Shown piece by piece: positions 29,174 to 43,970 of a stretch of DNA of 64,000 nt (positions are counted from its first letter, which is position 1; every line of letters begins with the position of its first letter). The stretch comes from Treponema brennaborense. GTDB lineage: Bacteria; Spirochaetota; Spirochaetia; Treponematales; Treponemataceae. The notes beneath the pieces are model-generated. The model made no database searches, had not been told where the DNA came from, and saw only the letters and a program-made list of their open reading frames with translations. Position numbers and translations under genes: made by a program. The DNA lies in assembly GCA_023666275.1 (NCBI GenBank), contig JAMPCJ010000003.1, positions 1 to 64,000 of the forward strand. The letters run 5' to 3'.

Positions 29174-30046
29174 TTACCAATCACTGTCGACAAAAAAATG
29201 CGCGCTTTTTTCTCCGAGAGCGGCGGCTGCCCAGGGAAGAATTTCCGAAAGTTCCTGTTTCAGTGTCTGAACCGGACGCAGAACAATAACGCCGGAACCG
29301 TACAGATTCTTTACGCGCCCGTTTTCTTTTATCGATGCCGGCTGCCTTATGCAAAGTTCTGCGTATAATCTGTTTTCGCAGCAAGCGGATAAGCGGCGTT
29401 TCAGGAGCTCTGTTTCTTTTCGGCGGCGGGCAACAAGCGGAAACCAAATAATAAATGTTCCTGCGTTCCAGCGCCGCACTGCGGATGATACGGAAGCAAT
29501 AACGGCGTCATATTCTTCGGCATCTTCGTATCCGGGATCGATAAGTGCAAAACCGCGGCGCGGCAGTGGAGAACGCGGCGGCAAAAGCGAATCGAGAACT
29601 TCAAATCCGCTTCTGTAATGAACATGCAGCCGCTTGTCTGTTTTGGCATAGCTTTTGAGTGCGCGTATTTCTGCGGGATGCAATTCCGAAAGAAGTGCTT
29701 CATCCTGCTCCCGCATACATGAGCGCACAATTTCCGGAGAACCGGGGTATTGTTTTTGATTTTCTATGTGCTGCCGGCATACGGCAAGGTACGGCGCGGC
29801 AGCTTTCGGTACGGCAGCGGGATTCTGCGCGGCATAATTTAAAAGCCGCAAAATCCCGTCGTTCATTTCTCCGGTTTGCTGCGTGCGTTCATCGTTTATG
29901 GAATATTTTCCGGCGCCGGCATGAGTATCGACATATAAAACGGGGGAATCTTTGCGGACAAAATAGCGTGCCGTATTCAAAACAACGATATGTTTGAGAA
30001 TGTCTGCGTGATTTCCTGCGTGAAATTCATGCTGATATGAAAGCAT
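29174..30046 (-). CDS. rlmJ: RlmJ-like 23S rRNA adenine-N6 methyltransferase
   Basis: A 290-residue protein matching RlmJ, which methylates A2030 of 23S rRNA. It begins MLSYQHEFHAGNHADILKHIV, nearly diagnostic, followed by LYVDTHAGAGKY and the QYPGSPEIV block. The catalytic motif reads LIDPGYEDAEEY: the conserved second Pro of DPPY is Gly here (codon GGA), so activity should be checked. Internal ATG 30046 is chosen as start because RlmJ homology begins there and a TATAGT box ends six bases upstream, with no ribosome site. It diverges from the GerMN gene across only 62 bases. Confidence 0.9.
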   Translation of the reverse strand: MLSYQHEFHAGNHADILKHIVVLNTARYFVRKDSPVLYVDTHAGAGKYSINDERTQQTGEMNDGILRLLNYAAQNPAAVPKAAAPYLAVCRQHIENQKQYPGSPEIVRSCMREQDEALLSELHPAEIRALKSYAKTDKRLHVHYRSGFEVLDSLLPPRSPLPRRGFALIDPGYEDAEEYDAVIASVSSAVRRWNAGTFIIWFPLVARRRKETELLKRRLSACCENRLYAELCIRQPASIKENGRVKNLYGSGVIVLRPVQTLKQELSEILPWAAAALGEKSAHFFVDSDW

Positions 30047-30052
30047 CTGAAA

Positions 30053-30102
30053 ACTATACCGAAAAATCGCGCGTTGTTCCATTGCGGGCAGTGTGGTATA
30101 CT
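30053..30102. promoter_or_regulatory. back-to-back leaderless promoters, rlmJ / GerMN gene
   Basis: Plus strand: TTGTTC (30074-30079), 17 bases, TATACT (30097-30102), six bases, ATG 30109. Minus strand: TGGAAC (30081-30076), 17 bases, TATAGT (30058-30053), six bases, ATG 30046. The two -35 boxes overlap. Neither gene has a ribosome site. The -35 matches are weak; the -10 boxes and spacing are good. Confidence 0.55.
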
Positions 30103-30108
30103 GCCGGA

Positions 30109-31065
30109 ATGAAGAAACAAAAGAAACACGCAGTAAAGTTTTCGTTTATTTTTTTGATGACTTTTCTGATTGCAATTGTTATAGCTTGTTTCGCTATGCA
30201 TAATACGGTCATAGAAGCGCTTGTGGAAACGGATTTTTTTAATCAGATATTGGGTTCCGAACCGAAATATATAACTCGGCAGGCGGAAAAACTGGGACTG
30301 CGCAGCCGAACGCAGGAATCCGATAATGCTGCCGTTTCGCCTGCGGAAACTGAAACTGCGTCCGCTTCTGCCGCAGCCGCGCCGCTGACTGAAACAGGCG
30401 GCACTGCCCCTGCTCCTTCAAATTCAGCCGTGTCTGCCGCTCCTGCGCCGGCAAGCGGGCAAACGGATTTTTCGAATTCCGTGATGCAAAACGAAACGCC
30501 GACGCAGCAAGTGCCCGATGCCGATGCAAAGCCTGTTTTTTCACAGGAAACGGAGCAGGAACGGCTCGAAAAGCAGGCGGAATTGCAAAAATCGCTGAGT
30601 GTTGCAAAAAAACTGCCGGAGCAGGAAGTGCAAAACGTAAGGCAGACGACGGTTTTTTTGTATTTTGTTGCAATCGACGCCGACGGTACCGTTATCAGAA
30701 AGGAAATAGAAAAACAGCTGCCGTATACAAAAACACCGCTTACCGCGGCGATAAATACCTTATTGCATGGTCCTGAATTTTCGGAAACGGAACGAGGCTA
30801 TATGTCGCTGATTCCGCAAAATGTCAAGCTTCTTTCTGCGGTTATAGAAAATCGGGTTGCGGTGCTTAATTTCAGCGAAGATTTTCTTTACAACAAATTC
30901 GGGGTTGAAGGATATCTTGGGCAGCTGATGCAAATTGTCTACACGGCAACCGCTTTCACGACAATTGACAGCGTATTATTTTTGATAAACGGAGAAAAAC
31001 AGGAATATTTAGGCGGTGAGGGCGTATGGATTGGAACGCCGCTTGCCCGCTCGTCTTTCAAATAA
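30109..31065 (+). CDS. membrane-anchored GerMN-domain protein
   Basis: A 318-residue protein. One N-terminal membrane helix (about 12-32) precedes an Ala/Ser/Pro/Thr-rich, low-complexity periplasmic linker (about 70-150) and a C-terminal GerMN domain (about 170-300; TVFLYFVAIDADG, LTAAINTLLHGP, VAVLNFSEDFL, QIVYTATAFTTIDSVLFLINGE). GerMN occurs in the spore protein GerM but also widely in non-spore-formers, where its role is unclear; envelope binding is a reasonable guess. ATG 30109 is chosen because the basic-then-hydrophobic signal anchor begins there and the promoter geometry fits a leaderless start. Confidence 0.85.
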   Translation: MKKQKKHAVKFSFIFLMTFLIAIVIACFAMHNTVIEALVETDFFNQILGSEPKYITRQAEKLGLRSRTQESDNAAVSPAETETASASAAAAPLTETGGTAPAPSNSAVSAAPAPASGQTDFSNSVMQNETPTQQVPDADAKPVFSQETEQERLEKQAELQKSLSVAKKLPEQEVQNVRQTTVFLYFVAIDADGTVIRKEIEKQLPYTKTPLTAAINTLLHGPEFSETERGYMSLIPQNVKLLSAVIENRVAVLNFSEDFLYNKFGVEGYLGQLMQIVYTATAFTTIDSVLFLINGEKQEYLGGEGVWIGTPLARSSFK

Positions 31066-31147
31066 ACGGATTCGCGTAAAAAAATGCATCCGCGTGTTTA
31101 GTACCGCTGCTGTATTTATGATTTCGCCGCGCGGTTTGAGTGATGCC

Positions 31148-32209
31148 TTATTCTGTAAGCCGAGAAACAATATCGTCAAAATATGATTTATTTGCCGCAT
31201 AAAACGGATTGTACACGGTAATTCCTGCGATGCGGTATGTTCCATCCGGCATCAGAGAAAGAATTTTTATATCCTGTGTCCAGGTTTGTGACGCGGCGAT
31301 GTACTGCATATTGTTTACTATTACGGAATTGTTTTTTCGCACTATTTTTGCGCGCGGCAGATAGCTGTAATTCCCGTTATCGGTTGTAAAAAAATTGCGC
31401 ACGCCGAAATCAAACGGCGTGTACGGCGCGCCGGAAAAGGATGCCGCGTCTATTTTCTGAACACCGATATAGCACAGCGCGTCTCCTCCCATAAGCCAAA
31501 CCGTATCGCCGACGCTTTTCCATTTTTTGTCGAGTTTTTTTTCGGCGGAACGCGAGAGCTGTTTGCCGCTTTTTGCGTTTTCCTGCGGCACTTTCGAAAA
31601 TCCCGCGAATGACGAAAAACTTTTATCATTAGAATCCTGCAGTGCGTTTATGCAGACGGCTTCGCACAGTACTTTTCCGGTGTTGTCCTGAATTTTTGCG
31701 ATATTGAATATCGGTACATGAAATTCATAGGTAATAACGATTTCCCCGCCGAACTGCACATAAATTTCGGTATGACGGATGCTTTTTGAAAAATCCGAAC
31801 CGTTCATTTTTTTTCGGCGGGCGGCGAATTCATACAGCATGTCATGCAGATAATTCACGGCTGTTACATCATCGGCGGAAATATTATTGATGATTTTTTC
31901 TCCCGAAAAAAACGGGTAGTCCTTTGACGTATCAAGCGTAAAAAGAATTTGGATATCCGTAAGCCCTTCTTTGGCAGCCGGCGCATAATATCTTGCGGCG
32001 TAGGTTCCTTCATCATATTGCAGAAAACCGATATATGTTTCCGCGACAAACGTATAGTCGCGGTAATACACGTACTGTCCGGATTCCGTCGGCAGGAAAT
32101 CCTGCACGCCGGGCATTGCCCAGGCGGCTGCGCAATGCAGAACGCATATAAGAACAAAAAAAGTCATTTTTAAGCCCTGATTATTTTCTGCGTAGCTGCG
32201 GTGTGTCAT
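31148..32209 (-). CDS. exported protein of unknown function
   Basis: A 353-residue protein with an N-terminal signal sequence (hydrophobic residues about 14-31 ending AAAWA). The rest is mixed alpha/beta with many aromatic residues (YVYYRDYTFVAETYIGF) and no motif I recognise. It follows proS by 82 bases on the same strand and has its own AGGAG site, so it is probably in the same transcript. Presumably periplasmic or surface-associated. It converges with the GerMN gene. Confidence 0.75.
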   Translation of the reverse strand: MTHRSYAENNQGLKMTFFVLICVLHCAAAWAMPGVQDFLPTESGQYVYYRDYTFVAETYIGFLQYDEGTYAARYYAPAAKEGLTDIQILFTLDTSKDYPFFSGEKIINNISADDVTAVNYLHDMLYEFAARRKKMNGSDFSKSIRHTEIYVQFGGEIVITYEFHVPIFNIAKIQDNTGKVLCEAVCINALQDSNDKSFSSFAGFSKVPQENAKSGKQLSRSAEKKLDKKWKSVGDTVWLMGGDALCYIGVQKIDAASFSGAPYTPFDFGVRNFFTTDNGNYSYLPRAKIVRKNNSVIVNNMQYIAASQTWTQDIKILSLMPDGTYRIAGITVYNPFYAANKSYFDDIVSRLTE

Positions 32210-32291
32210 GCCGTCTCCTTTTGCGTCTGAAAGAATTTCAATTCCGCCCGTGTATATTCAATGCGCGGAATGCTTGATTTTTGCCGTTTCG

Positions 32292-34127
32292 CTATGCCCG
32301 CAGCGCAGACAATTTTTCGCCGATTATGTTTGCTGCGCGCTGCGCCGCATCCGCTGCCGGAACAAGTTCCAATTCGTCCGAAGAACGCAGTTTCAGCTCT
32401 ACGTTCGGCAGATGCTTGTCGCTGACGACAATGCGCATCGGATAGCCGATGAGATCCGCGTCTTTGAATTTTACGCCGGGACGTTCCGCTCTGTCATCGA
32501 GGATTGTTTCAATGCCGGCTTTCAGCAATGCCTGATAAATTTCGTCCGCGGCGGTTTTCATTGCTCCCTCATATTTTACCGGAATAACTGCCGCCTGATA
32601 CGGAGTTACTGTCGCCGGCCAAATAATCCCGTTGCCGTCATGATGTTCTTCTATAATAGAAGCAAGCACACGGTCAACGCCGATGCCGTAACATCCCATC
32701 AGCGGCGTCTGCTGTTTGCCGTTTTCGTCGAGGAAAGATACGTTCATCGATTTTGTGTATTTATATCCGAGCTTAAAGATGTGGCCGAGTTCGTTGCCTT
32801 TTTTGCTGTAATATTCCGCTCCGCAGTTGCAGCATTTATCTCCCGCAACAACGGTTCTGATGTCGCCTGTTATAAACGGAACAAAATCCCGAACCGGTTC
32901 AACGTGTATAAAATCAATATCCGCTTGTCCGCCGCCGGTAACTGCGTCATGCATCTGTGCCGAATACGAACCGCTGCTGTCTGCGGTCATTACACTGTCA
33001 TCCGCAATCAGCGGCAGTTTCGTAAGATTTACGGGACCGACAAATCCGTGCGGGGCGCCGGAAAAACGGATTACATCGTCTTCCCCTGCAAGTTCTGTTT
33101 CGCTTGCTTTCAGCACAGCCGCAAGCTTGGCTTCGTTTACGTCAAGGTCGCCGCGAATGGCAACCGCAAAAAATGCTTCCGGATAATAGGGAGTTCCGTC
33201 GTGTTCGAAAACGCGCGCAAAAGAACTGCTTCCGGGTGCGCCGGTTAAATCGAGGGCGCAGTTTCGTACTTTGTATATAAGCACTTTTATGAAGCGTTTC
33301 GCCGGCATTTTGAAAAATGTTTCCATTTGCGAAATAGATTCAACGCCGGGGCAGGGAACTTTTTCAATGGGCAGTTCCGTCTGTTTTGCCGCAAATTGTT
33401 CCGCATCGGGCGCGCATACGGCTTTTTCCGTATTTGCCGCATATCCGCATTTCGGGCATAAAATCAGCGTATCGTCGCCGATTTCGCTTTCGACCATAAA
33501 TTCTTCGCTGCCGCTGCCGCCCATTGCGCCGGAATTTGCCCGAACCGGAATAACGGACAGCCCCAGCCGCTTGAAAATACGCCGATACGCCTGTGCGAAT
33601 TTTTGGTATGTTTCATCAAGGCTTTCCTGCGTCGCATGGAACGAATAGGCGTCTTTCATGGTAAATTCACGTCCGCGCATGACTCCGTAGCGCGGTCGGA
33701 TTTCGTCGCGGAATTTGGTATTTATTTGATACAAAATAAGCGGCAGCTGTTTATATGAAGAAAGTTCTCCGCGCACAATATCGGTGAAAACTTCTTCCGC
33801 TGTCGGAGAAACAACGAGATCCTGATTCAGTCTGTTTTTTGCACGCAGCATGCCGCTGCCCATTGTTTCCCAGCGGCCGGATTCCTGCCATAATTCTCCC
33901 GGAACTACGACCGAAGGCTTGCATTCCATGGCGCCGATTGCGTCCATTTCTTCGCGGATAATCTGTTCTACTTTGCGGAAAACCCGAAGTCCGAGCGGCA
34001 AATAAGAAAAAAGTCCGTTGCCGAGTTTGCGCATCAGTCCCGCGCGGAGCATGAGCTGATGACTGGCAATTACCGCTTCCGCAGGTACTTCGCGAAGCGT
34101 CGCGATCATAGTTTCCGATGTTTTCAT
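32292..34127 (-). CDS. proS: prolyl-tRNA synthetase
   Basis: A 611-residue bacterial-type ProRS that charges tRNA-Pro. Class II motif 1 (LGNGLFSYLPLGLRVFRKVE), motif 2 (KFRDEIRPRYGVMRGREF) and motif 3 (MGCYGIGVDRVLASIIEEH) are clear. A YbaK-type editing domain is inserted between motifs 2 and 3 (about 230-390), which removes mischarged alanine, and a C-terminal anticodon-binding domain follows. Cys pairs (CPKCGYA, CCNCGAE) lie near the insertion edges. The start at 34127 has no ribosome site but a TTGAAA-18-TACAAT promoter ends seven bases upstream. An ATG at codon 7 is an alternative. Confidence 0.96.
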   Translation of the reverse strand: MKTSETMIATLREVPAEAVIASHQLMLRAGLMRKLGNGLFSYLPLGLRVFRKVEQIIREEMDAIGAMECKPSVVVPGELWQESGRWETMGSGMLRAKNRLNQDLVVSPTAEEVFTDIVRGELSSYKQLPLILYQINTKFRDEIRPRYGVMRGREFTMKDAYSFHATQESLDETYQKFAQAYRRIFKRLGLSVIPVRANSGAMGGSGSEEFMVESEIGDDTLILCPKCGYAANTEKAVCAPDAEQFAAKQTELPIEKVPCPGVESISQMETFFKMPAKRFIKVLIYKVRNCALDLTGAPGSSSFARVFEHDGTPYYPEAFFAVAIRGDLDVNEAKLAAVLKASETELAGEDDVIRFSGAPHGFVGPVNLTKLPLIADDSVMTADSSGSYSAQMHDAVTGGGQADIDFIHVEPVRDFVPFITGDIRTVVAGDKCCNCGAEYYSKKGNELGHIFKLGYKYTKSMNVSFLDENGKQQTPLMGCYGIGVDRVLASIIEEHHDGNGIIWPATVTPYQAAVIPVKYEGAMKTAADEIYQALLKAGIETILDDRAERPGVKFKDADLIGYPMRIVVSDKHLPNVELKLRSSDELELVPAADAAQRAANIIGEKLSALRA

Positions 34128-34134
34128 GATTTTT

Positions 34135-34164
34135 ATTGTATCGGAAAGCGATATTCTTTTTCAA
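34135..34164 (-). promoter_or_regulatory. leaderless proS promoter
   Basis: On the minus strand, TTGAAA (34164-34159), 18 bases, TACAAT (34140-34135), seven bases, ATG. No Shine-Dalgarno sequence is present. Confidence 0.6.
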
Positions 34165-34274
34165 GAAGTGCCGCAATTGCAGTTATCGGTAACGGCGCCA
34201 GCATTGCCTGCGGTTCGGGCGCTGATTGAGGCGCCGTCGGCTCGAACTCGCATGTACTCGTGCCCCATTGCGGG

Positions 34275-34317
34275 CGAGTTTTCGCAAGAAAACTCGTTAA
34301 GCAAACCGCAGGTTTGC
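34275..34317. repeat. two adjacent perfect hairpins
   Basis: CGAGTTTTC/GAAAACTCG with a GCAA loop (34275-34296), then GCAAACC/GGTTTGC with a GCA loop (34301-34317). Tetraloop-like geometry suggests folded RNA or a mobile repeat; no T run follows. Confidence 0.7.
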
Positions 34318-34383
34318 GGCTCATTGCGGCCGAAGTGAACGAAGCGGACGGAACGGAGAAATCTGTTCAAAGAAAGACCTCTC

Positions 34384-34537
34384 CATGCCGGGAGAAACGC
34401 ATTCACGTGACAGAGGAAACGTCTTCCCGTGGCAGGAGAAGAGCATTCGCGTGGCAGGGGAAACGTCTTCCCGTGGCAGGAGAAGAGCATTCGCGTGGCA
34501 CGGGAAATGCTTCACGCGGCAGAAGAAGCGCCGATCG
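34384..34537. repeat. seven 22-bp tandem repeats
   Basis: Units begin cgtggcag-like and alternate between two endings (aaacgtcttcc and agagcattcg), giving a 44-base higher period in the middle. Outer units at both ends are more degenerate. The unit length is not a multiple of three, so any reading frame changes from unit to unit. Confidence 0.85.
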
Positions 34538-34701
34538 CCGAAAAAACTGCGCTGCGCTTCGGTGTTTTATGCGCCGGCGGCAAATCCGCATCTGCGGACA
34601 ATTGCGGATATTTGCAAATGTTCTTTTAAAAACAGAAAAAGCATACAGAAAATATAATTGTCGTCGTCTGTTTTCATATAATTTTAATATGGAGGTGCTT
34701 T

Positions 34702-37047
34702 ATGCGCATTCATATTAAAGCAGGCTGTGCTGCCGTTGTTTTGATGCTTGCTGCATCCTGTGATTTTTCGGCACCCGAAACAGTCCAAGTATCAGCCGCG
34801 CCGACTTTTTCCGCATCTGCGGGAAATACCGATGTAAAAATTTCCTCATACATGACCTTGGCAGATATAAAGAAAAAACTGCGTTCTTCCGCGGAAACCG
34901 CTGAAATTTACAATTATATACCGGATAAAAAAAACAATGTTATGCAGTATGTTCTGCGGTATCCGCTGATAAATAAGCGTCCTGTTCCGCTTAATATTGC
35001 CGGCGTTATGGAAAACCTGAACGTTGTTGCCGATGTCGACAGGAATCTGCCCGATCAGACATTTTCCGTGCCTGATTTATCGATAAACAATCGGGAAATC
35101 GGTTCTGTGCCGCTGGATTTGCTGTCTTCTTTTCCGGGGCTTGGTTTGGGCGGCACTGTTGTATCCGGTGTTACACAAGTAATCGATAAAGAGGTGCATG
35201 CGGATATTCCGCTTCCGTCCGGCGCCGGATTTATTTCCGCGGATATAGCGGATAACGGCAGCAGAAAATCGGTGCTGAAAATTACCGTCAATGCGCCGTG
35301 CTTTTCGCAATGGCAGTCCGTGGAAAAACAAGTTCGTATTTCCGTCAGGCAGCCCGGCGGAATGAATATCGATAAGACATTTGCGGCATCTGCGCTTGGT
35401 CCGATTGTCATCGAAGAAAATCTCCGCGGGCAGAAAATGACCTCTGCGCCGTTGTCTGTGGAAACCCACATTACGCTGCGATTTAACAATTCGACAATCA
35501 TCATTTCTCCGTCGCCGGAAAATATTTCCGTGCAGGCAGATTTACGCATCGAAAAATTGGAAAATGTTATGCTGCAAACCGATTCTTCGCTTGCGGCTTC
35601 TCTTTCGCCGCCGCCGCTGCGGATTGCTGTTCCGCCGGAAATGAAAGAATGGATAGAAAGCATCACGTTTGAAGAACTCGGCTTTGAAATCGAAATTGAC
35701 AACGGACTGCCGAGCGGCAGCGATCTGTATGTTACGCTGACTGCGCCCGAATTCGGCATAACTTCCGATAACAGAAAAATATTCGGAAGCGGAACAAAAA
35801 CCGTGCAGCGGTATATGGCTCCGAAAAACTATCGGATGGTGCCGGACGCTATCGATGATTTTTCTGTTGAAACAAACATTGAAATACAAGGCTTGACAGA
35901 CAACGGTTTGCTGACGCTTTCCGGCATTATTCCCGGGAAGCCGGTTGCATTCAAATGCGATGTAAAAGGCATTTTTAATTTTTCGGAGGTCAAAGTAAAA
36001 ACAAACCAGAGATTTTCCGGGTCATTTCCGTCGGCATCGCAGTCATCTATTGATTTCAGCATCATCAAAGATTTATTCGGCGAAAAAGTCGAACTGGAAA
36101 CAATCCCGCTGTATCTGTTTGTTTCTTCGCCGGTACTGCAGGAGCTTTCCGCATTCAAAACTTCAGGCGGAAGCAGCATTTCCGGATTGGTGCGTGTTTC
36201 ATACAGTGAATCCGGTGTTCAAAAAACAGATTATCTTGTTTCCGATACGGGATATTCTCCCGCATCTCCTGATGATGCCGCTGCGCCGGCACAGGTTTAT
36301 TTGGTTCCGCCGCCGGACTTTGAGCATTTGACAGAAGATTTGTCCGTATATGCGGAAGAATATTTTGCCGGAAATCTTGACGACATGCGGAACAGTCTTT
36401 CATCGGATTCCGAAAATGCAAAAACTGCCGTAGATTTAGCGCGCGTTCTGAATAAATCGCCGGATAATATTAGGTTTGATTATGATTTCAGCGTCAATTC
36501 GGTGCAGCTGAGCGCCGCGGATATTGACGCGCTTAAAAAAATCGGCGGCGATGACTTAACTATTTCCGCGATTCTGGCAATTGCACTGCCTTTGAAACTG
36601 TCCGTGAAACAAACGGACGGATTAGCCGAAACCGAAATATACCAAATGGCGGACATTTTCTCTTCGGATTTGCTGGAGCGCCGTTCCGCAACGGACATTA
36701 CGGAAAATATGCAAACCGTTCTTGACGGTCTGAAATGTTTGCAGCTTGAAATCGCTTACGATAATGCGCTGCTGTCTTCCGATAAATTTTTCGCAGCAAA
36801 ATTATACGCGCTGGACAAGGGCAGCGGTTTTCAAAAAACTGCCGAATTGCGTGAAAAAAACGGCACAATTTTTATGGAACTTTCTGCTTCCGAAGTGAAA
36901 CAAATTTTAAATACGTATCCGTTTAAACCGGAATTGTCTTTGCGGGTTCCGCCCGGCAGTTATTTCATAGACCGCGCCGCATGTTTTAACGTAAACGTGA
37001 AAGTAAATATATCCGCCGATATAAATCGGCAGTTCACACTGAAATAA
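34702..37047 (+). CDS. large lipoprotein, module copy 1
   Basis: A 781-residue lipoprotein with lipobox LAASC and Cys20, then DFSAPE. The mature part is long, beta-rich and Ser-rich, with no enzyme motif. It is a paralogue of the protein at 38599-40857: shared landmarks in the same order are CDFSAPE, a SxASYM/L segment, MQYVLRYP/MQYAVRYP, NGLPSGSDLYVTLT/NKLPDGMDIDITLT, SSPVLQEL/SSPVLEQF, and a near-terminal PF-PELSL/PDVSLF stretch. GGAGG lies six bases before the ATG. The barrel-like partner gene follows 22 bases later, so lipoprotein and barrel are probably made together. A surface complex is a hypothesis. Confidence 0.8.
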   Translation: MRIHIKAGCAAVVLMLAASCDFSAPETVQVSAAPTFSASAGNTDVKISSYMTLADIKKKLRSSAETAEIYNYIPDKKNNVMQYVLRYPLINKRPVPLNIAGVMENLNVVADVDRNLPDQTFSVPDLSINNREIGSVPLDLLSSFPGLGLGGTVVSGVTQVIDKEVHADIPLPSGAGFISADIADNGSRKSVLKITVNAPCFSQWQSVEKQVRISVRQPGGMNIDKTFAASALGPIVIEENLRGQKMTSAPLSVETHITLRFNNSTIIISPSPENISVQADLRIEKLENVMLQTDSSLAASLSPPPLRIAVPPEMKEWIESITFEELGFEIEIDNGLPSGSDLYVTLTAPEFGITSDNRKIFGSGTKTVQRYMAPKNYRMVPDAIDDFSVETNIEIQGLTDNGLLTLSGIIPGKPVAFKCDVKGIFNFSEVKVKTNQRFSGSFPSASQSSIDFSIIKDLFGEKVELETIPLYLFVSSPVLQELSAFKTSGGSSISGLVRVSYSESGVQKTDYLVSDTGYSPASPDDAAAPAQVYLVPPPDFEHLTEDLSVYAEEYFAGNLDDMRNSLSSDSENAKTAVDLARVLNKSPDNIRFDYDFSVNSVQLSAADIDALKKIGGDDLTISAILAIALPLKLSVKQTDGLAETEIYQMADIFSSDLLERRSATDITENMQTVLDGLKCLQLEIAYDNALLSSDKFFAAKLYALDKGSGFQKTAELREKNGTIFMELSASEVKQILNTYPFKPELSLRVPPGSYFIDRAACFNVNVKVNISADINRQFTLK

Positions 37048-37069
37048 TCAAAAAAAGAGAGCATGAATT

Positions 37070-38323
37070 ATGAAGAAAAACAAATTGTGCATTTTGCTGC
37101 TTTTAAAAATCTTTTGTTCGCTTGCTGCGGAAATACAGCCTGCGGAACGCATTTTTGAAATAGGCGCGGATGTCTGTGCGTCTGCGCTGAATAATTATTT
37201 TTCATTCAATGATATTTTCAAAAAAACAATTACTGTGGATTTCGGCAATATGGCAGATTCGCTTGCCGAAAGCGGAAAATTTGCGCTTGGAGCAAATGCG
37301 TCGTCGCGGATTTTTATGCGGCTGAATTTGCCGCGTTTCCGCTTTTACGTAGGCGCAGGATTTGCGGCGTCGTCTTCGCTGGCGGTTCCGCAGAGTCTTG
37401 TGAAAGCTGTCGGACAGGGAATCTCTTCGAACCAGAATATTCACGGCGCATTGGGAAGCGGGGCGGATTTGTTTTTTTATGCGGAAACCGCGGTGAGCGT
37501 AAAAAAAGGTCTGTTCCTTTTTACGGTTTCTCCGGCGGTGTTCGCTCCCGTTGTTCATATCGAACACCCCGCTGCTTCGTTCAAATATATAAACCGCGCG
37601 GACGGACGCCTTTCTGCGGAAGCGGAAGTTTCCGCAGCGGTGTATTCTCGGACCGACGTACTGCATCTCGGTTTCGATTCGCTGCGTATTCAGGAAATTC
37701 TTTCCGGATTCGGCGCCGATTTTTCGCTGTCTGCGGAAATGGCGGTGCTGCCGTGTTTTGATGCCGGTATTTCGCTTGAAAATATTCCTGCCTTTCCGGC
37801 AAAAATGAAATACAAAACGTCATATACGAAAAAATTCACCGCCGACGTAAACGGAAATTTTCTTTCCGGCATTATTGACGGGGAAAAAATTTCCGATATG
37901 TTTGTGTTCAAAGAAAAAGGCAATTCCGATTCTGCCGTAACAATCGAAGAAAAAAATGTTATTTTTCGTCAGCTGAAATTCAGACTTTCCGGTGCATTCC
38001 GTCCGTTTGAAAACAGGCGCTTGTTTACGGTTATTCCTTCCGTTGTTTTTAAATTGAACAGATGCGGCGCGCTGACGATAGGCGCTTTTCAATCCGGCGT
38101 TTTTGATTTTTCCGTAAAAGCGCTTTTCCGTCCCGTATATTTTTTTACGGCAATGTCTTCTGTCGGATATACGGACAAAATATGGCAAATTCAAGCCGGT
38201 ACTGCATTTGATTTTCGGGTGTTTGAATTGGACCTCGCTGCCGCATTGTGCAGCCAGGACTTGAAGCGCTGTTTTGAATTATGCGGCGCGCAGGCGGCAG
38301 TCGGTATTCGCTTCGGATACTGA
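37070..38323 (+). CDS. predicted outer-membrane barrel protein, module copy 1
   Basis: A 417-residue exported protein with a signal peptide ending about residue 20 (CSLAAEIQPAE). Alternating strand pattern throughout (FEIGADVCASALNNYFSFND, FYVGAGFAASSSL, FTVSPAVFAPVVHIE) and a C-terminal aromatic end (AAVGIRFGY) fit an outer-membrane beta-barrel. It is a paralogue of 40983-42200, sharing ALNNYFSF/FSNNYFSF, VPQSL, FRPF-NR, YTDKIWQIQAG/YRDKIWMMQGG and the IRFGY/IRLGF end. It lies 22 bases after its lipoprotein partner. Possible channel or scaffold; not recognised further. Confidence 0.75.
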   Translation: MKKNKLCILLLLKIFCSLAAEIQPAERIFEIGADVCASALNNYFSFNDIFKKTITVDFGNMADSLAESGKFALGANASSRIFMRLNLPRFRFYVGAGFAASSSLAVPQSLVKAVGQGISSNQNIHGALGSGADLFFYAETAVSVKKGLFLFTVSPAVFAPVVHIEHPAASFKYINRADGRLSAEAEVSAAVYSRTDVLHLGFDSLRIQEILSGFGADFSLSAEMAVLPCFDAGISLENIPAFPAKMKYKTSYTKKFTADVNGNFLSGIIDGEKISDMFVFKEKGNSDSAVTIEEKNVIFRQLKFRLSGAFRPFENRRLFTVIPSVVFKLNRCGALTIGAFQSGVFDFSVKALFRPVYFFTAMSSVGYTDKIWQIQAGTAFDFRVFELDLAAALCSQDLKRCFELCGAQAAVGIRFGY

Positions 38324-38403
38324 TTCGTGCGTAAACCGCATTTTTATTCCTCCTTTTTCCTCTCCTGATTTTTCTCTTCCGCGCATTGCACTGATGCGTT
38401 TAC

Positions 38404-38427
38404 GCCGCAAAACATGCGGCAATTTTT
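38404..38427 (+). terminator. intrinsic terminator after module copy 1
   Basis: GCCGCA, five-base loop, TGCGGC, then AATTTTTT. It separates the two lipoprotein/barrel modules. Confidence 0.7.
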
Positions 38428-38455
38428 TATCGTTTTTACCGGAAAAAGATATTTA

Positions 38456-38483
38456 TTGACAAAATCGGAAAACGATTTATACT
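38456..38483 (+). promoter_or_regulatory. strong promoter of module copy 2
   Basis: TTGACA, 16 bases, TATACT: the best-matching sigma70-type promoter in the window. Transcription would start near 38490, about 109 bases before the start codon. Confidence 0.75.
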
Positions 38484-38489
38484 TATCTC

Positions 38490-38530
38490 GATAAAGCAGC
38501 ATTGTTTTTTGCTTTATCATATATTTTTTT
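38490..38530 (+). promoter_or_regulatory. hairpin plus T run at the predicted transcript 5' end
   Basis: GATAAAGCA (38490-38498) pairs with TGCTTTATC (38510-38518), followed five bases later by seven T (38524-38530). It could stabilise the mRNA 5' end or act as a leaky attenuator. Confidence 0.5.
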
Positions 38531-38598
38531 TGCGTGCGGAAATTGTACGCACAGTCAATGTTGATGAAGCCGCTGTAAAGCGGGTTTTTGGAAATTCC

Positions 38599-40857
38599 AT
38601 GAAAATTACAAAGATTATTGCCGCGGCAGCAATTTGTCTGCTGTTTGTGTTTGCGGCGTGCGATTTTTCCGCGCCGGAAAAACTGCGGATAAAAGCTTCC
38701 CCGCAGATTGATGTGGGAAGCACGGATTTTTCGCTTGCATCATATCTTTCGATAGAAAAAATGCGGGAACTTATGGGCGGCGCGAATATCGGCGGCGAAA
38801 ATGAAAATGACTCGGAAATACAAATTTTCGATTATCGTCCGTCGGCAGACGACAGCCTCATGCAGTATGCCGTCCGCTATCCGGTTTTCAAAGAAGTAAT
38901 TCCGCTCGATTTTATGTCGGCTTTTGATTTTGACGAAAAACTCGGAGAATCCGTCAATATGGAATTCGAAGTTCCTTCCGCGGACGAATATATAAACAAG
39001 CTGGAAAAATCCGCGGAATTTTATGTTCCCGAATCGAAATCCGAAAAAACATACAATCTTGAGAAAATTTCCGAATTGCTGCCGTCCGGTTATGAATGCA
39101 CATCGACAATTTCAATCGGAGATGTCGGCATGACGTTTTCGGAAGGTTCCGTGCTTTGCATCCAAATCGACAAAGTCGTGCCGGAATCGCTTTCCGCAAG
39201 CTATACGCTGACGCTGAATTCCATCCGCCTGTCTTGTGCGGGGCAAAATGTTGCGGAATTAAACGGTTCGTATGATTTAACCCGTTCCGCAGGAAATCGG
39301 CTGAATCTTGATGTCGGCGGCAGGAAACTGCAAGGCGATGTTGCTATCGATATTTCCGTTACGACGTCCGGCGGAAAAGAATTGAATGCGGAAAATTCTC
39401 GGATAAATCTTGCGAAAATGACCATGAACGTTTCCGCGGAAAACGCGAAAATTGCTTATCTGCATGACGTAAAAGTAGCGATGGACGAGGATTTCAAAGA
39501 AAAGCTTTCAAACGATTTAAGCATGGATATGCCGGAAAGCATGACGCAATGGATTGAGCGCGCGGAAGGAACTGCCTGCGTTGCAATCGATTTGGAAAAC
39601 AAGTTGCCGGACGGCATGGACATTGATATTACGCTTACGTCCGGTTTGCTTGCTATACAAGATACGAAATCATTTCCCGCCGGCGAAAAAACCGAGGAAA
39701 AATATGAAAGCACTCACACTGTAACAATCAATCCGCAAAACGGCGGGCAGTTTGATTTAAAGCTTGACATGAAGCTTACGGGATATGATGAAAGCGCCAA
39801 CGAAATGACCTTTGAAAAAATCGAGCCGGGCACAAAGATTACGCTTGACGGAACCGTAAGCTGCACATTCGATTTTGACGAACTGAAATTGATCGCAAAT
39901 CAATCATATTCGGGAAGTTATCCGTCCGAAGGCGAACAGGGACTCGATTTGAGTGCGCTCGGCGATTTCCTGCCGGAAGGACTTACGCTTGCCTCTGTGC
40001 CCGTATATGTGTATATGTCCTCTCCCGTCCTCGAACAATTTGACTCGATAAAAGACTCTGTTACCGGATTTGTGAAAGCTTCATATACAAGCGAAAGCGA
40101 GGGTGCAAAAACTTGTTTCTTAATCGGCACAGAAGATGGAAGCGGCGAAATTCAATTCGAAACGCCGCCGCAATTTTCCGCCGAAACGGAAACACTGGAG
40201 GTTGATTTGGCGCGGATACCTTGCAGCGGTCGTACCGAGTTTGCCGAAATCGTTAATTCCTCGCCCGCCGATCTTGCGTTTTCTTATGAATTTAATTTGG
40301 GAACAATCGATTTGCAGGAAGAAGATCTTGAACTGCTTGCAGATTCCGATCTTGACATGGAAATGTGTGTCGATCTTGTGATTGTTCTGCCGCTGGAGCT
40401 GAAAGCGGAAAGCGCCGATTCTTCCGGCGGTGTTCTGCTGAACATAAACGAATTTGCAGGCATCGAAGAAAATATTTCCGACCGCAGCGACTTATTCGGG
40501 CGCGGTTCGGCAGACGAAGAAACGGATGACATCCGCGATATTATTCACGGCTTAAAATCTCTCGGAATAAAACTCACTTGTCATGACATGATGTTTTCTT
40601 CGGGCGCTTCTTCCAAAGATGTGAAAATAATTCTTAAGCAGGATACTTTTGAAAAAGAATTATCCATGCCGAAAAGCGGAGAAAAATCCTCTGTATCGTT
40701 CAAAGTCGGAGAGGTGGACGAAATGCTTGATTTGTATCCGTTCTTTCCGGATGTGTCGCTGTTCATTCCCGACGGAACCTGGAAAGTTCCGCGTGATGCG
40801 AAAATCAATTTGGATATCGGCATTTCCGCTGATATCGATATGGAATATTCGTTGTGA
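38599..40857 (+). CDS. large lipoprotein, module copy 2
   Basis: A 752-residue lipoprotein, paralogue of 34702-37047. The start at ATG 38599 (MKITKIIAAAAICLLFVFAAC) gives a perfect signal peptide with lipidated Cys21; an upstream in-frame ATG at 38509 would disrupt it. Compared with copy 1 it is more acidic (many Glu/Asp) and has a different segment after MQYAVRYP. Repeated beta-type motifs alternate with short helices; no catalytic residues were found. The ribosome site is weak (GGAAA). A barrel-like partner follows after 125 bases. The long leader with a hairpin sets its expression apart from copy 1. Confidence 0.8.
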   Translation: MKITKIIAAAAICLLFVFAACDFSAPEKLRIKASPQIDVGSTDFSLASYLSIEKMRELMGGANIGGENENDSEIQIFDYRPSADDSLMQYAVRYPVFKEVIPLDFMSAFDFDEKLGESVNMEFEVPSADEYINKLEKSAEFYVPESKSEKTYNLEKISELLPSGYECTSTISIGDVGMTFSEGSVLCIQIDKVVPESLSASYTLTLNSIRLSCAGQNVAELNGSYDLTRSAGNRLNLDVGGRKLQGDVAIDISVTTSGGKELNAENSRINLAKMTMNVSAENAKIAYLHDVKVAMDEDFKEKLSNDLSMDMPESMTQWIERAEGTACVAIDLENKLPDGMDIDITLTSGLLAIQDTKSFPAGEKTEEKYESTHTVTINPQNGGQFDLKLDMKLTGYDESANEMTFEKIEPGTKITLDGTVSCTFDFDELKLIANQSYSGSYPSEGEQGLDLSALGDFLPEGLTLASVPVYVYMSSPVLEQFDSIKDSVTGFVKASYTSESEGAKTCFLIGTEDGSGEIQFETPPQFSAETETLEVDLARIPCSGRTEFAEIVNSSPADLAFSYEFNLGTIDLQEEDLELLADSDLDMEMCVDLVIVLPLELKAESADSSGGVLLNINEFAGIEENISDRSDLFGRGSADEETDDIRDIIHGLKSLGIKLTCHDMMFSSGASSKDVKIILKQDTFEKELSMPKSGEKSSVSFKVGEVDEMLDLYPFFPDVSLFIPDGTWKVPRDAKINLDIGISADIDMEYSL

Positions 40858-40982
40858 GGTTTATTGCGGCTCGCGGTATTCGGTGCGGGTGCGAATTGCA
40901 GATTGCGGCGCACGCGTGATTTAATTTAATGCAGGTTTGAACGCAGATGTTTCCTGCGGCAGCGCGTTTTTAAGGAATGTTT

Positions 40983-42200
40983 ATGAAGAAGTTTTTTTTG
41001 CTGACGGTGATGATTCATGCGGCTGTTTTGCTGTCGGCGGAAATTTCGCCGGCGCCGCGCCGTTATTTTGAAATAGGCACCGATATTTTCGGCGGTTTTT
41101 CAAACAATTATTTTTCTTTTTCGGATATTTTAACAGAAACAATCGAACTTGATTTTAACAAAATGTCCGAAACACTGAAATCAAACGGATTGATGATTGA
41201 TTCGGTTTTTGATGCGGGCGTTTTTATGAATTTGAATTTGCCGGTTTTCCGCTTGAATGCCTTTGCGGGTGTTGCCGGAAATTTCCTGTTTACGGTGCCG
41301 CAGTCTTTGTTTGACATAATTGCAAACGGCATTGAGTTTGATGACGAAATTTCCGGTTCGGCAGATATTTCCGCAGATGTTTTTTTTCAGGCAGGACTTG
41401 GGTTTTCCGCAAAAGTCGGAAAAGTCCGCTTCAAAGTAACGCCGGCTTTGTTCGTTCCGCTTATTCACATATCGGATTCCGCCTGGACGTATTCGCTTAA
41501 ATACGGACGCGATTCTGTTTTCGCGGAAACGGCGTTTTCGGCAGCGCTGTATTCGTCTGTCGATGAAAATATGGATATGGCGGAATTCTTTTCGAGTTAC
41601 GGTATTGATGTCGCAGTTGGTGCGGAAATGCCGGTTTTCCCGTGGCTGGATGCGGGTGTTGCCGTTGAAAATATTCCTATTTCTTCCGCAAAACTGAATT
41701 ATCGGCACACAGCCGAATCTTCGTATTCATGGAAAACAGATAAAAGCATTTTTGATACGATAACCGGCGATGATGATACAGATGCGGCAGAGGAAAGCGA
41801 TAGTTCTTCGAGCGAAGTTAAATCTGTGGAAGAAGCGCTGTGCCGGCAGCTCAGGCTTGTGCTGACAGCGGCGTTCCGTCCGTTTAATAATCGGGATTTA
41901 TTTGCGGTTACGGCTTCTGCGGCATTTAAATTCAACAGCGGTTCTGCGCTGACTATGAATTCAAGCAATGCCGCTATGCCGGATTTTCTTGTCAAAGTGG
42001 ATTTCCGTCCGATAAAATTGTTCGCGCTTCAAGCTGCGACTTCATACAGGGATAAAATCTGGATGATGCAGGGCGGGCTTATGCTTAATTTCCGCGTGTT
42101 TGAAATGGATCTCGCACTGGCAACCAGAAGCGGTTCGCTGCGCGGCTGCTTTACCGGAACCGGCATACAGGCAGGCATCGGTATCAGGCTTGGATTTTAG
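40983..42200 (+). CDS. predicted outer-membrane barrel protein, module copy 2
   Basis: A 405-residue exported protein. ATG 40983 is preferred over ATG 40977 because AAGGA sits seven bases before it but only one base before the other. The signal peptide ends near residue 18 (LLSAEISPAP). Barrel-like alternating strands and a C-terminal GIGIRLGF aromatic end match copy 1. An acidic Asp/Glu/Ser insert (DDDTDAAEESDSSSSE, about residues 263-280) is absent from copy 1 and probably forms an exposed loop or periplasmic turn. Confidence 0.75.
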   Translation: MKKFFLLTVMIHAAVLLSAEISPAPRRYFEIGTDIFGGFSNNYFSFSDILTETIELDFNKMSETLKSNGLMIDSVFDAGVFMNLNLPVFRLNAFAGVAGNFLFTVPQSLFDIIANGIEFDDEISGSADISADVFFQAGLGFSAKVGKVRFKVTPALFVPLIHISDSAWTYSLKYGRDSVFAETAFSAALYSSVDENMDMAEFFSSYGIDVAVGAEMPVFPWLDAGVAVENIPISSAKLNYRHTAESSYSWKTDKSIFDTITGDDDTDAAEESDSSSSEVKSVEEALCRQLRLVLTAAFRPFNNRDLFAVTASAAFKFNSGSALTMNSSNAAMPDFLVKVDFRPIKLFALQAATSYRDKIWMMQGGLMLNFRVFEMDLALATRSGSLRGCFTGTGIQAGIGIRLGF

Positions 42201-42307
42201 CCGCGCGCTGCATTTTGTGCTTGCGGGTGCGCTTTCCGCCCTCTGCTGAATTGGGAAACGGCGTGCGGCGTATTTTTTATACCGCAGGTGCCGTAACTGC
42301 GCTTTCG

Positions 42308-43120
42308 CTATATGCCGAAATGTGTTTCCAGATGCAAAGCGATGCCGTCTTCGTCGTTCGATTTTTCCGTGATAAAACGGGCTAGCCGTTTGATTTCTTC
42401 GCGCCCGTTGCACATGGCTACGCTGCATCCGGCGTATTTTATCATTGATTCATCATTCATGCTGTCGCCGAATGCAATAATATCCGCGGAGTCTATATGC
42501 AGTATTTGTTCCGCAAGAAAGCGCAGCGCTTCGCCTTTTCCGGAATGCGGCGGCAATACTTCCATAAAGTACGGTTTGCTCACAAAAACGGTCGCGGCAT
42601 CATTCAGTTCCGTCTTGAATTCCGCTTCGACTGCCGTGATAAATTCGGGATTTCCGGGAATAACCAATTTGTATACGCCGGAGGCAACAAGTTTTTCGTA
42701 GTCTTCCGGCACTATTATTTTCAGCTTGGACAAGTGAGAATCGCGCGCGGAAAATTCCGTTTCGCGGGAAACATAGATGCATGAATCTCCGTATATGTGG
42801 CACGAAAGTCCTGCCGCTTCGCACATGCGCCAGGCTTTTATTGCGGTATCCGGCGGCACCGTGCGTTCGTAGATTCTTTTCCCGCTGTCGGAAGTGATAA
42901 TTTCCGCTCCGTTGCTGCAGACGAGGTAGCTTTGCATCGTATTGCTGCCGATTCTCTGCGCAAACGGTTCCACTGCCCGCGGCGCACGCCCCGATGCGAT
43001 AACAGGCAGAAAACCTTTTGCCGCAGCCCGCCGAAGTGTGCACACTGTCCTGTCTGAAATAGATAAGTCTTTCCGCAAAAGCGTGTCGTCAAGATCCATT
43101 GCAAGTATTTTTAGTGCCAT
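42308..43120 (-). CDS. Cof-type HAD phosphatase
   Basis: A 270-residue HAD-superfamily hydrolase of the Cof/IIB class. Motif I is MDLDDTLL, the Ser/Thr motif lies in VIASGRAP, and motif IV is AFGDSMNDESMIKYAG, with the Lys in SGKGEALRFL. Such enzymes dephosphorylate sugar phosphates or cofactor intermediates; substrate is not predictable. The gene has no ribosome site. A TTGTAA-17-TATAAT promoter ends eight bases before the ATG, so the message is probably leaderless or nearly so. It diverges from the SGNH hydrolase across 64 bases. Confidence 0.92.
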   Translation of the reverse strand: MALKILAMDLDDTLLRKDLSISDRTVCTLRRAAAKGFLPVIASGRAPRAVEPFAQRIGSNTMQSYLVCSNGAEIITSDSGKRIYERTVPPDTAIKAWRMCEAAGLSCHIYGDSCIYVSRETEFSARDSHLSKLKIIVPEDYEKLVASGVYKLVIPGNPEFITAVEAEFKTELNDAATVFVSKPYFMEVLPPHSGKGEALRFLAEQILHIDSADIIAFGDSMNDESMIKYAGCSVAMCNGREEIKRLARFITEKSNDEDGIALHLETHFGI

Positions 43121-43128
43121 GACTGATG

Positions 43129-43178
43129 ATTATATCGATTAAAAAGACATTTTACAATTCAAGGTTTTTTGCTATGAT
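43129..43178. promoter_or_regulatory. back-to-back promoters with overlapping -35 boxes
   Basis: Plus: TTTACA (43151-43156), 16 bases, TATGAT (43173-43178), six bases, ATG 43185. Minus: TTGTAA (43157-43152), 17 bases, TATAAT (43134-43129), eight bases, ATG 43120. The -35 boxes share five bases. Both transcripts would be leaderless or nearly so. Confidence 0.7.
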
Positions 43179-43184
43179 ATTTGC

Positions 43185-43970
43185 ATGGATGAAGCAGAAA
43201 TCGAAGGCGAATTTTCACGTGCGTGCGAAAAGTCAAAGTTCCGTATTTTTATGGCGGGTGATTCGACGATGCAGTACAATGACTGCACAACGTATCCGCA
43301 AACCGGCTGGGGGCAGGTTCTGCCGTTGTTTTTGCCGCCGAACGTCTGCGTTCATAACTTCGCGAAAAACGGACGAAGCACAAAAAGTTTTATTGCGGAA
43401 GGAAGACTTGATGCCGTAAAAAAAATGCTGTCGTGCGGCGATTATCTTTTTATTCAATTCGGTCATAATGATGAAAAACTGCATGACAAAACGCGGGGCA
43501 CGCAGCCGTCGGAGGAATATACCGATAATTTGGCGGAATTTGCGCAGGCCGCGATTCGGAATCACGCGCTGCCGGTTTTTTTTACGCCGATAGCCCGCCG
43601 CCAGTACGCAGCAGACGGTTCCGGCCGTTTGGAGGATACGCACGGCGATTATCCTGCCGCGATGATTCGATATGCCCGCGCTGCTCATTTTCCGGTTATC
43701 GACATGAATTCGCTGACACGCGCATTTCTTGAAAAAACAGGCGAACAGGCAAGCCGCGAATTTTTTATGAATTTCGATGCCGGCATATACGGCAGGTATA
43801 TGGACGGAAAGCAGGACAACACGCATTTGCGCTACGCCGGAGCGTTTGAAACAGCGCGCATTGCGGCGGAAGAATTGCGCGGAATCGGGGACGCGTTTCC
43901 TGACTATAAACCGCTTTCGGAAGCGATTATTCTTCCGGGAAATGAAACAATAGACAGCACGGAACGCTAA
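43185..43970 (+). CDS. SGNH hydrolase, rhamnogalacturonan acetylesterase type
   Basis: A 261-residue GDSL/SGNH esterase. Block I is FMAGDSTMQYND (catalytic Ser), block III FIQFGHNDEK (Gly/Asn oxyanion), and block V KQDNTHLRYAGA (Asp and His). The spacing and GDSTM sequence match rhamnogalacturonan acetylesterases, which deacetylate pectin. No signal peptide is visible, so it likely acts inside the cell on imported oligosaccharides. The gene starts at ATG 43185 with no ribosome site and a TATGAT box six bases upstream. It precedes a second HAD gene by 33 bases. Confidence 0.88.
   Translation: MDEAEIEGEFSRACEKSKFRIFMAGDSTMQYNDCTTYPQTGWGQVLPLFLPPNVCVHNFAKNGRSTKSFIAEGRLDAVKKMLSCGDYLFIQFGHNDEKLHDKTRGTQPSEEYTDNLAEFAQAAIRNHALPVFFTPIARRQYAADGSGRLEDTHGDYPAAMIRYARAAHFPVIDMNSLTRAFLEKTGEQASREFFMNFDAGIYGRYMDGKQDNTHLRYAGAFETARIAAEELRGIGDAFPDYKPLSEAIILPGNETIDSTER

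Follow-up and report, generated by a model that had tools for sequence, protein, structure and literature searches.

Positions 34702–42200 of the Treponema brennaborense DNA analysed here (64,000 nucleotides of contig JAMPCJ010000003.1, hereafter the window) carry two paralogous units in tandem, each made up of a gene for a large lipoprotein (LP) followed by a gene for a predicted outer-membrane beta-barrel (BB), in the order LP1-BB1 then LP2-BB2 and with all four open reading frames (ORFs) on the plus strand. The lipoprotein-barrel pair is a conserved, widespread and patchy module which is not peculiar to the source genome, and its barrel is, by profile comparison, a divergent relative of the function-less family DUF5723 (PF18990). 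Taken as a whole, the module is best explained, with moderate confidence on our part, as a FadL-like barrel on which a surface lipoprotein docks, the latter probably capturing a ligand. The four genes are:

34702..37047, plus strand: LP1, lipoprotein of unit 1, 781 residues, lipobox ..LAASC with Cys20, mature N-terminus DFSAPETVQVSAAP
37070..38323, plus strand: BB1, predicted DUF5723-related outer-membrane barrel of unit 1, 417 residues, starting 22 bp after LP1 and ending ..RFGY
38599..40857, plus strand: LP2, lipoprotein of unit 2, 752 residues from the ATG at 38599, lipobox ..FAAC with Cys21
40977..42200, plus strand: BB2, predicted DUF5723-related outer-membrane barrel of unit 2, ORF of 407 residues (405 from the ATG at 40983), ending ..RLGF

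A search with BB2 found barrels in 23 of 59 relatives. In the 20 neighbourhoods read out of those 23, a lipoprotein gene lay immediately upstream wherever the contig was long enough, with one exception (L043), and the two genes often overlapped or were separated by a few bases. A close-set alignment scan returned 11 named loci from Treponema spp. and Spirochaetaceae metagenome assemblies (a few of them contigs already counted), all with a lipoprotein upstream; a scan of genome contigs with a single protein gave no matches. Of the genomes sampled across the phylum, 67 of 393 had a match to the barrel profile and 61 of 384 one to the lipoprotein profile, with no LP-bearing genome lacking BB. Two independent profile searches placed an LP match directly upstream of 61 of the 72 barrel genes, and reading the exceptions gave five more pairs (L131–L135), so that 66 of 72 barrels are adjacent to a lipoprotein gene. 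The profile search for co-occurrence proposed in the initial annotation thus finds the two families anything but rarely adjacent. The other six barrel genes comprise three at contig ends, one remnant and two true orphans with no upstream lipoprotein gene (G031 C1:1510945 and G329 C67); the orphan barrels occupy 7943–9367 of L043 and 2293–3669 of L136. Every pair seen has one LP per BB, with the LP upstream. The pair occurs in many treponemes from the gut, rumen or mouth, the module is absent from G019, and profile searches of a 1.1 Mb treponeme genome, the size of that of T. pallidum, detected neither LP nor BB.

As the initial annotation had proposed, the two units in the window are paralogous in matching order and strongly diverged: LP1 and LP2 share 26% identity over 807 alignment columns (E 4e-64), and BB1 and BB2 39% (E 8e-84). 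In maximum-likelihood trees built from 30 pairs for each family, the window copies are sisters both for BB (SH-aLRT 100) and for LP (SH-aLRT 96), therefore both genes were duplicated together. The trees place this tandem duplication of the two-gene unit after the source lineage had split from all sampled relatives. No third copy of LP or BB was found in the rest of the source genome (2.35 Mb, with treponemes as its closest relatives). Two other genomes, G048 and G385, each carry two unlinked modules (L030/L044 and L129/L130, respectively), and the LP and BB of these old paralogues do not mix in the trees; on this phylogenetic evidence the anciently diverged modules represent a second, old paralogue group in the order. 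Across the family LP distances correlate with BB distances (r 0.47, Mantel p 0.0005), as expected under joint inheritance, a correlation which alone is no proof of contact between the proteins.

The genomic setting is also shared in part. The proS gene, a gene for a 353-residue exported protein and a gene for a GerMN-domain protein (30037–34127 of the window) are found next to the module not only in the window but also at L033, L039 and L049, hence the site next to proS is probably the ancestral module locus. A few other neighbouring genes recur beside the module (3–6 loci each). Such recurrent neighbours mark an ancestral locus and point to no function.

The behaviour of the module between close relatives was followed at one syntenic locus in four genomes (G014, G221, G031 and G214) whose flanks are 82–99% identical overall. 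Between G014 and G221 the neighbouring genes are 86–92% identical and the barrels 78%, whereas the lipoproteins are only 37% identical; the first 45 residues (80%) and last 40 residues (62%) of the lipoprotein are better conserved than its body (26–42%). Synonymous distance is higher in LP than in BB of this same pair (dS 1.31 vs 0.45), which suggests that recombination substituted a divergent allele for the LP body, beyond any fast change. G031 has an intact barrel (64.5% identity) between immediate neighbours at 91–94% and no lipoprotein gene, and in G214, with flanks at 92–99%, only the last 34 barrel residues are left (L138, 4727–4828), 100% identical to G014. The module is therefore accessory and dispensable, with the lipoprotein as its changeable part. 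The loss or replacement of the lipoprotein half between close relatives suggests a changeable surface complex facing the host or the environment.

The lipid anchor proposed in the initial annotation is supported, the lipobox Cys being invariant in 19 of 19 aligned lipoproteins. It is followed directly by a conserved segment, P-K-x-V-x-V-K-x-x-P ... L-G, and a D-L-F-x-R motif and the C-terminal strand are also conserved. The body in between is poorly conserved and highly variable in length, giving 388–952 mature residues in the family, and the LP2 model shows numerous small beta domains strung together. Searches of Pfam, NCBIfam and PDB sequences gave no match to the LP family, hence the lipoprotein remains without a known family, as first annotated.

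The same could not be said of the barrel, for which the initial annotation had also recognised no family. BB1 and BB2 themselves fall below detection by the Pfam DUF5723 model, but family members L034, L041 and L044 exceed its gathering cut-off, as do seven Treponematales loci. An hhalign comparison of the BB family with DUF5723 proteins of distant spirochaete families gave 98.6% probability across 341 columns (E 8.8e-16), while a reversed decoy reached 0.5%. The two groups differ near the N-terminus, where the YNPAG motif of the distant DUF5723 proteins is missing from the BB family, which has SNNYF..DIF..ET instead. A signal peptide, a strand-rich model and a C-terminal aromatic residue (F/Y/W in 20 of 22 aligned members) together predict an outer-membrane beta-barrel, in line with the initial annotation. 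The BB2 model (pLDDT 81, pTM 0.73) has about 16–17 strands, not 14 as in FadL; its first long connection contains two helices and its second a single one. Its top Foldseek matches among solved structures were TodX, FadL and BamG, a subunit of the Bacteroidota BAM machinery (9n2d_B, 9hiv_F), with E values from 7e-9 to 1e-7, and the modelled fold is accordingly nearest to the FadL/TodX group, including BamG. Helices in the first two long barrel connections are likewise found in the FadL/TodX/OmpP1 hydrophobic-ligand channels, which differ from BB in having no constant lipoprotein partner gene. An acidic insertion had been noted in the barrel of copy 2; this is instead a hydrophilic stretch of variable length found family-wide, just before the conserved “RPxK/RPL” strand, where the residue count of BB1 equals or exceeds that of BB2.

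None of the 22 barrel members matched the FadL-type sequence models Toluene_X and UPF0164. UPF0164, which we take to comprise the T. pallidum-type FadL proteins (TP0856/TP0858 etc.), resembles BB as a treponemal outer-membrane barrel of FadL type, but a link between the two was rejected, as hhalign gave only 1.9% and the source genome has no UPF0164 match.

The association with a lipoprotein extends to the distant spirochaete DUF5723 genes, where a large lipoprotein gene lies before the barrel gene in 10 of 13 loci (L111–L120; not L121, L122 or L123). Profile comparison of the treponemal LP with these distant lipoproteins gave 92.9% with signal peptides included and 2–31% with them removed, hence most of this similarity is signal peptide, and homology is not provable without it. 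An N.LP.G motif is nevertheless common to both groups at frequencies above those in shuffled sequences (7 vs 0.4 and 4 vs 0.2). At three of the distant loci (L111, L112 and L120) the pair is preceded by a gene for a protein of ~725 residues (VTPPFVQLSSPYPA near the N-terminus) and followed by one for a small lipoprotein (..DRLKPIRALARSQNL), an arrangement which could possibly be a four-gene cluster.

A lipoprotein whose ends are conserved while its body varies, its one-to-one pairing with a barrel and losses among close relatives are in keeping with docking of a surface lipoprotein onto a FadL-like barrel, for ligand capture or host contact. The lipoprotein would be lipid-anchored on the outer leaflet of the outer membrane and attached to the barrel by two conserved parts, the N-terminal segment right after the lipidated Cys and the C-terminal strand. 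The long body would project outward and capture a ligand, whether a nutrient, a glycan or a molecule of the host. As docking base, the barrel would probably let a hydrophobic ligand of small size, or a fragment, pass inward, in the manner of FadL-type barrels. The lipoprotein would be the changeable specificity part, its gene being more prone to replacement or loss than that of the barrel, and tandem duplication of the proS-adjacent ancestral module followed by divergence would have produced two complexes with distinct specificities.

In physical terms the nearest known parallel is the BamG-BamH pair of Bacteroidota, in which a large surface lipoprotein has its N-terminus gripped by a FadL-like barrel (PMC12611786, PMC12578637). 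That system is essential and universal in Bacteroidota, however, whereas the spirochaete module is patchy, dispensable and has no detectable sequence relation to it: searches against the 9n2d and 9hiv PDB chains gave no match for BB at E 10 and none for LP at E 1. On these grounds we do not place the module with BamG/BamH.

Several observations weigh against docking and ligand capture as we propose them. From the findings above we infer the surface location of the lipoprotein, its physical complex with the barrel, the ligand and its transport. The Foldseek matches of BB2 have a low TM of about 0.4 and identities of 11% or less, and strand parity in the BB2 model is unclean, such that outward-facing loops are not assignable from the model. 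The LP2 model is only of moderate quality (pLDDT 74, pTM 0.55), and the LP fold matches are scattered beta-sandwich proteins with TM < 0.3 and no interpretable fold. The lipoprotein is not always the faster partner either, as in the close pair L053/L054, with identities of 78% for LP and 75% for BB. Lastly, co-transcription of unit 2 across the 119 bp gap between LP2 and BB2 is likely but no more certain than that.

The main rival, itself unlikely in our view, is that BB acts as a dedicated translocon which takes its cognate LP to the surface, with the lipoprotein alone binding the ligand. A substrate lipoprotein gene beside a barrel gene recalls Slam and its substrates (PMC5449769, PMC9090332), the lipoprotein being variable in both systems, and the greater variability of LP than BB in two close pairs is as expected of a substrate. 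Against this, no family member has a Slam/DUF560 Pfam match and the BB2 model lacks a periplasmic domain. Orphan barrels without an adjacent LP occur in G031 and G329, and a dedicated exporter could serve several lipoprotein genes, yet each barrel seen has a single one, always upstream.

It is rather improbable that the lipoprotein instead occupies the inner leaflet, relaying or plugging a substrate of the barrel from below. Periplasm-facing lipoproteins are common in spirochaetes and no consistent acidic surface-export signal follows the LP Cys, unlike in Bacteroidota, but nothing else at the syntenic locus varies as much as the LP body (26–42% vs 86–92% in neighbours), which is hard to explain in the periplasm, and the mature lipoprotein is also long.

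Very little likelihood attaches to a BamG/BamH-like accessory of the BAM machinery, in which the FadL-like barrel would bind BamA and the lipoprotein would form an extracellular canopy aiding assembly of some surface proteins: the architecture is closely alike (PMC12611786, PMC12578637) and BamG, to which BamH is attached by its N-terminus, ranks with BB2's best fold matches, but the match is to the whole FadL group with TodX first, LP has no BamH match by sequence or among the 50 fold matches listed, and BamG/BamH are undeletable in Bacteroidota, whereas the module is missing in G019, has been deleted in G214 and survives only as its barrel half in G031.

Two signals lie between the units:

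38404..38428, plus strand: terminator-like hairpin and T-run ending unit 1 (consensus scan only)
38456..38483, plus strand: promoter-like site before unit 2, TTGACA-16-TATACT (11/12 consensus match only)

The region holds 14 promoter-like sites against 11.6 expected, the site at 38456–38483 being the top-scoring one. A strong promoter and hairpin leader had been attributed to copy 2; the former is retained as this best-scoring site, as a consensus match only. The strong hairpin at 38404–38420 (GCCGCAAAACATGCGGC then AATTTTTTAT) precedes the promoter-like site, and hence looks like the terminator of unit 1 and not a leader of unit 2. With a terminator-like hairpin and then a promoter-like site between them, the two units look separately transcribed. 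An Rfam search of 34000–43300 found no known RNA. The LP1 start has an SD-like GGAGG upstream. The LP2 reading frame opens earlier, with a TTG at 38509, but the ATG at 38599 is the most likely protein start, and the ATG at 40983, six bases downstream of AAGGA, is the more likely start of BB2. Upstream of copy 1, between proS and LP1, a 22/44-bp unit (GAAACGTCTTCCCGTGGCAGGAGAAGAGCATTCGCGTGGCA...) is repeated in a tandem array (34391–34528) which might vary from strain to strain; a similar array was observed at G000:C13:192012-192116.

A barrel with a lipoprotein partner is a well-known general kind of system, but this pair of families is undescribed as far as our literature search showed. Searches on treponemal FadL proteins and lipoproteins returned mainly T. 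pallidum outer-membrane papers, and no paper mentioning DUF5723 was found in the literature searched, so that the initial description of the system as undescribed stands with regard to function. Work on the treponeme outer membrane has centred on T. pallidum, and here a function-less family, DUF5723, gains a consistent partner. As the lipoprotein varies and vanishes between very close relatives, it is a candidate for what makes treponeme surfaces differ. More tentatively, and with considerable doubt, the lipoprotein and DUF5723 barrel may form a general, hitherto undescribed outer-membrane system of two components in Spirochaetota, and perhaps wherever DUF5723 occurs, Bacteroidota included; in it the barrel would be a constant base, and recombination at a fixed locus would exchange the lipoprotein as a specificity cassette, such that related treponemes differ in their surface. 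If the lipoprotein is indeed swapped on a constant barrel, the locus would be a natural experiment on the export and retention of surface lipoproteins in spirochaetes.

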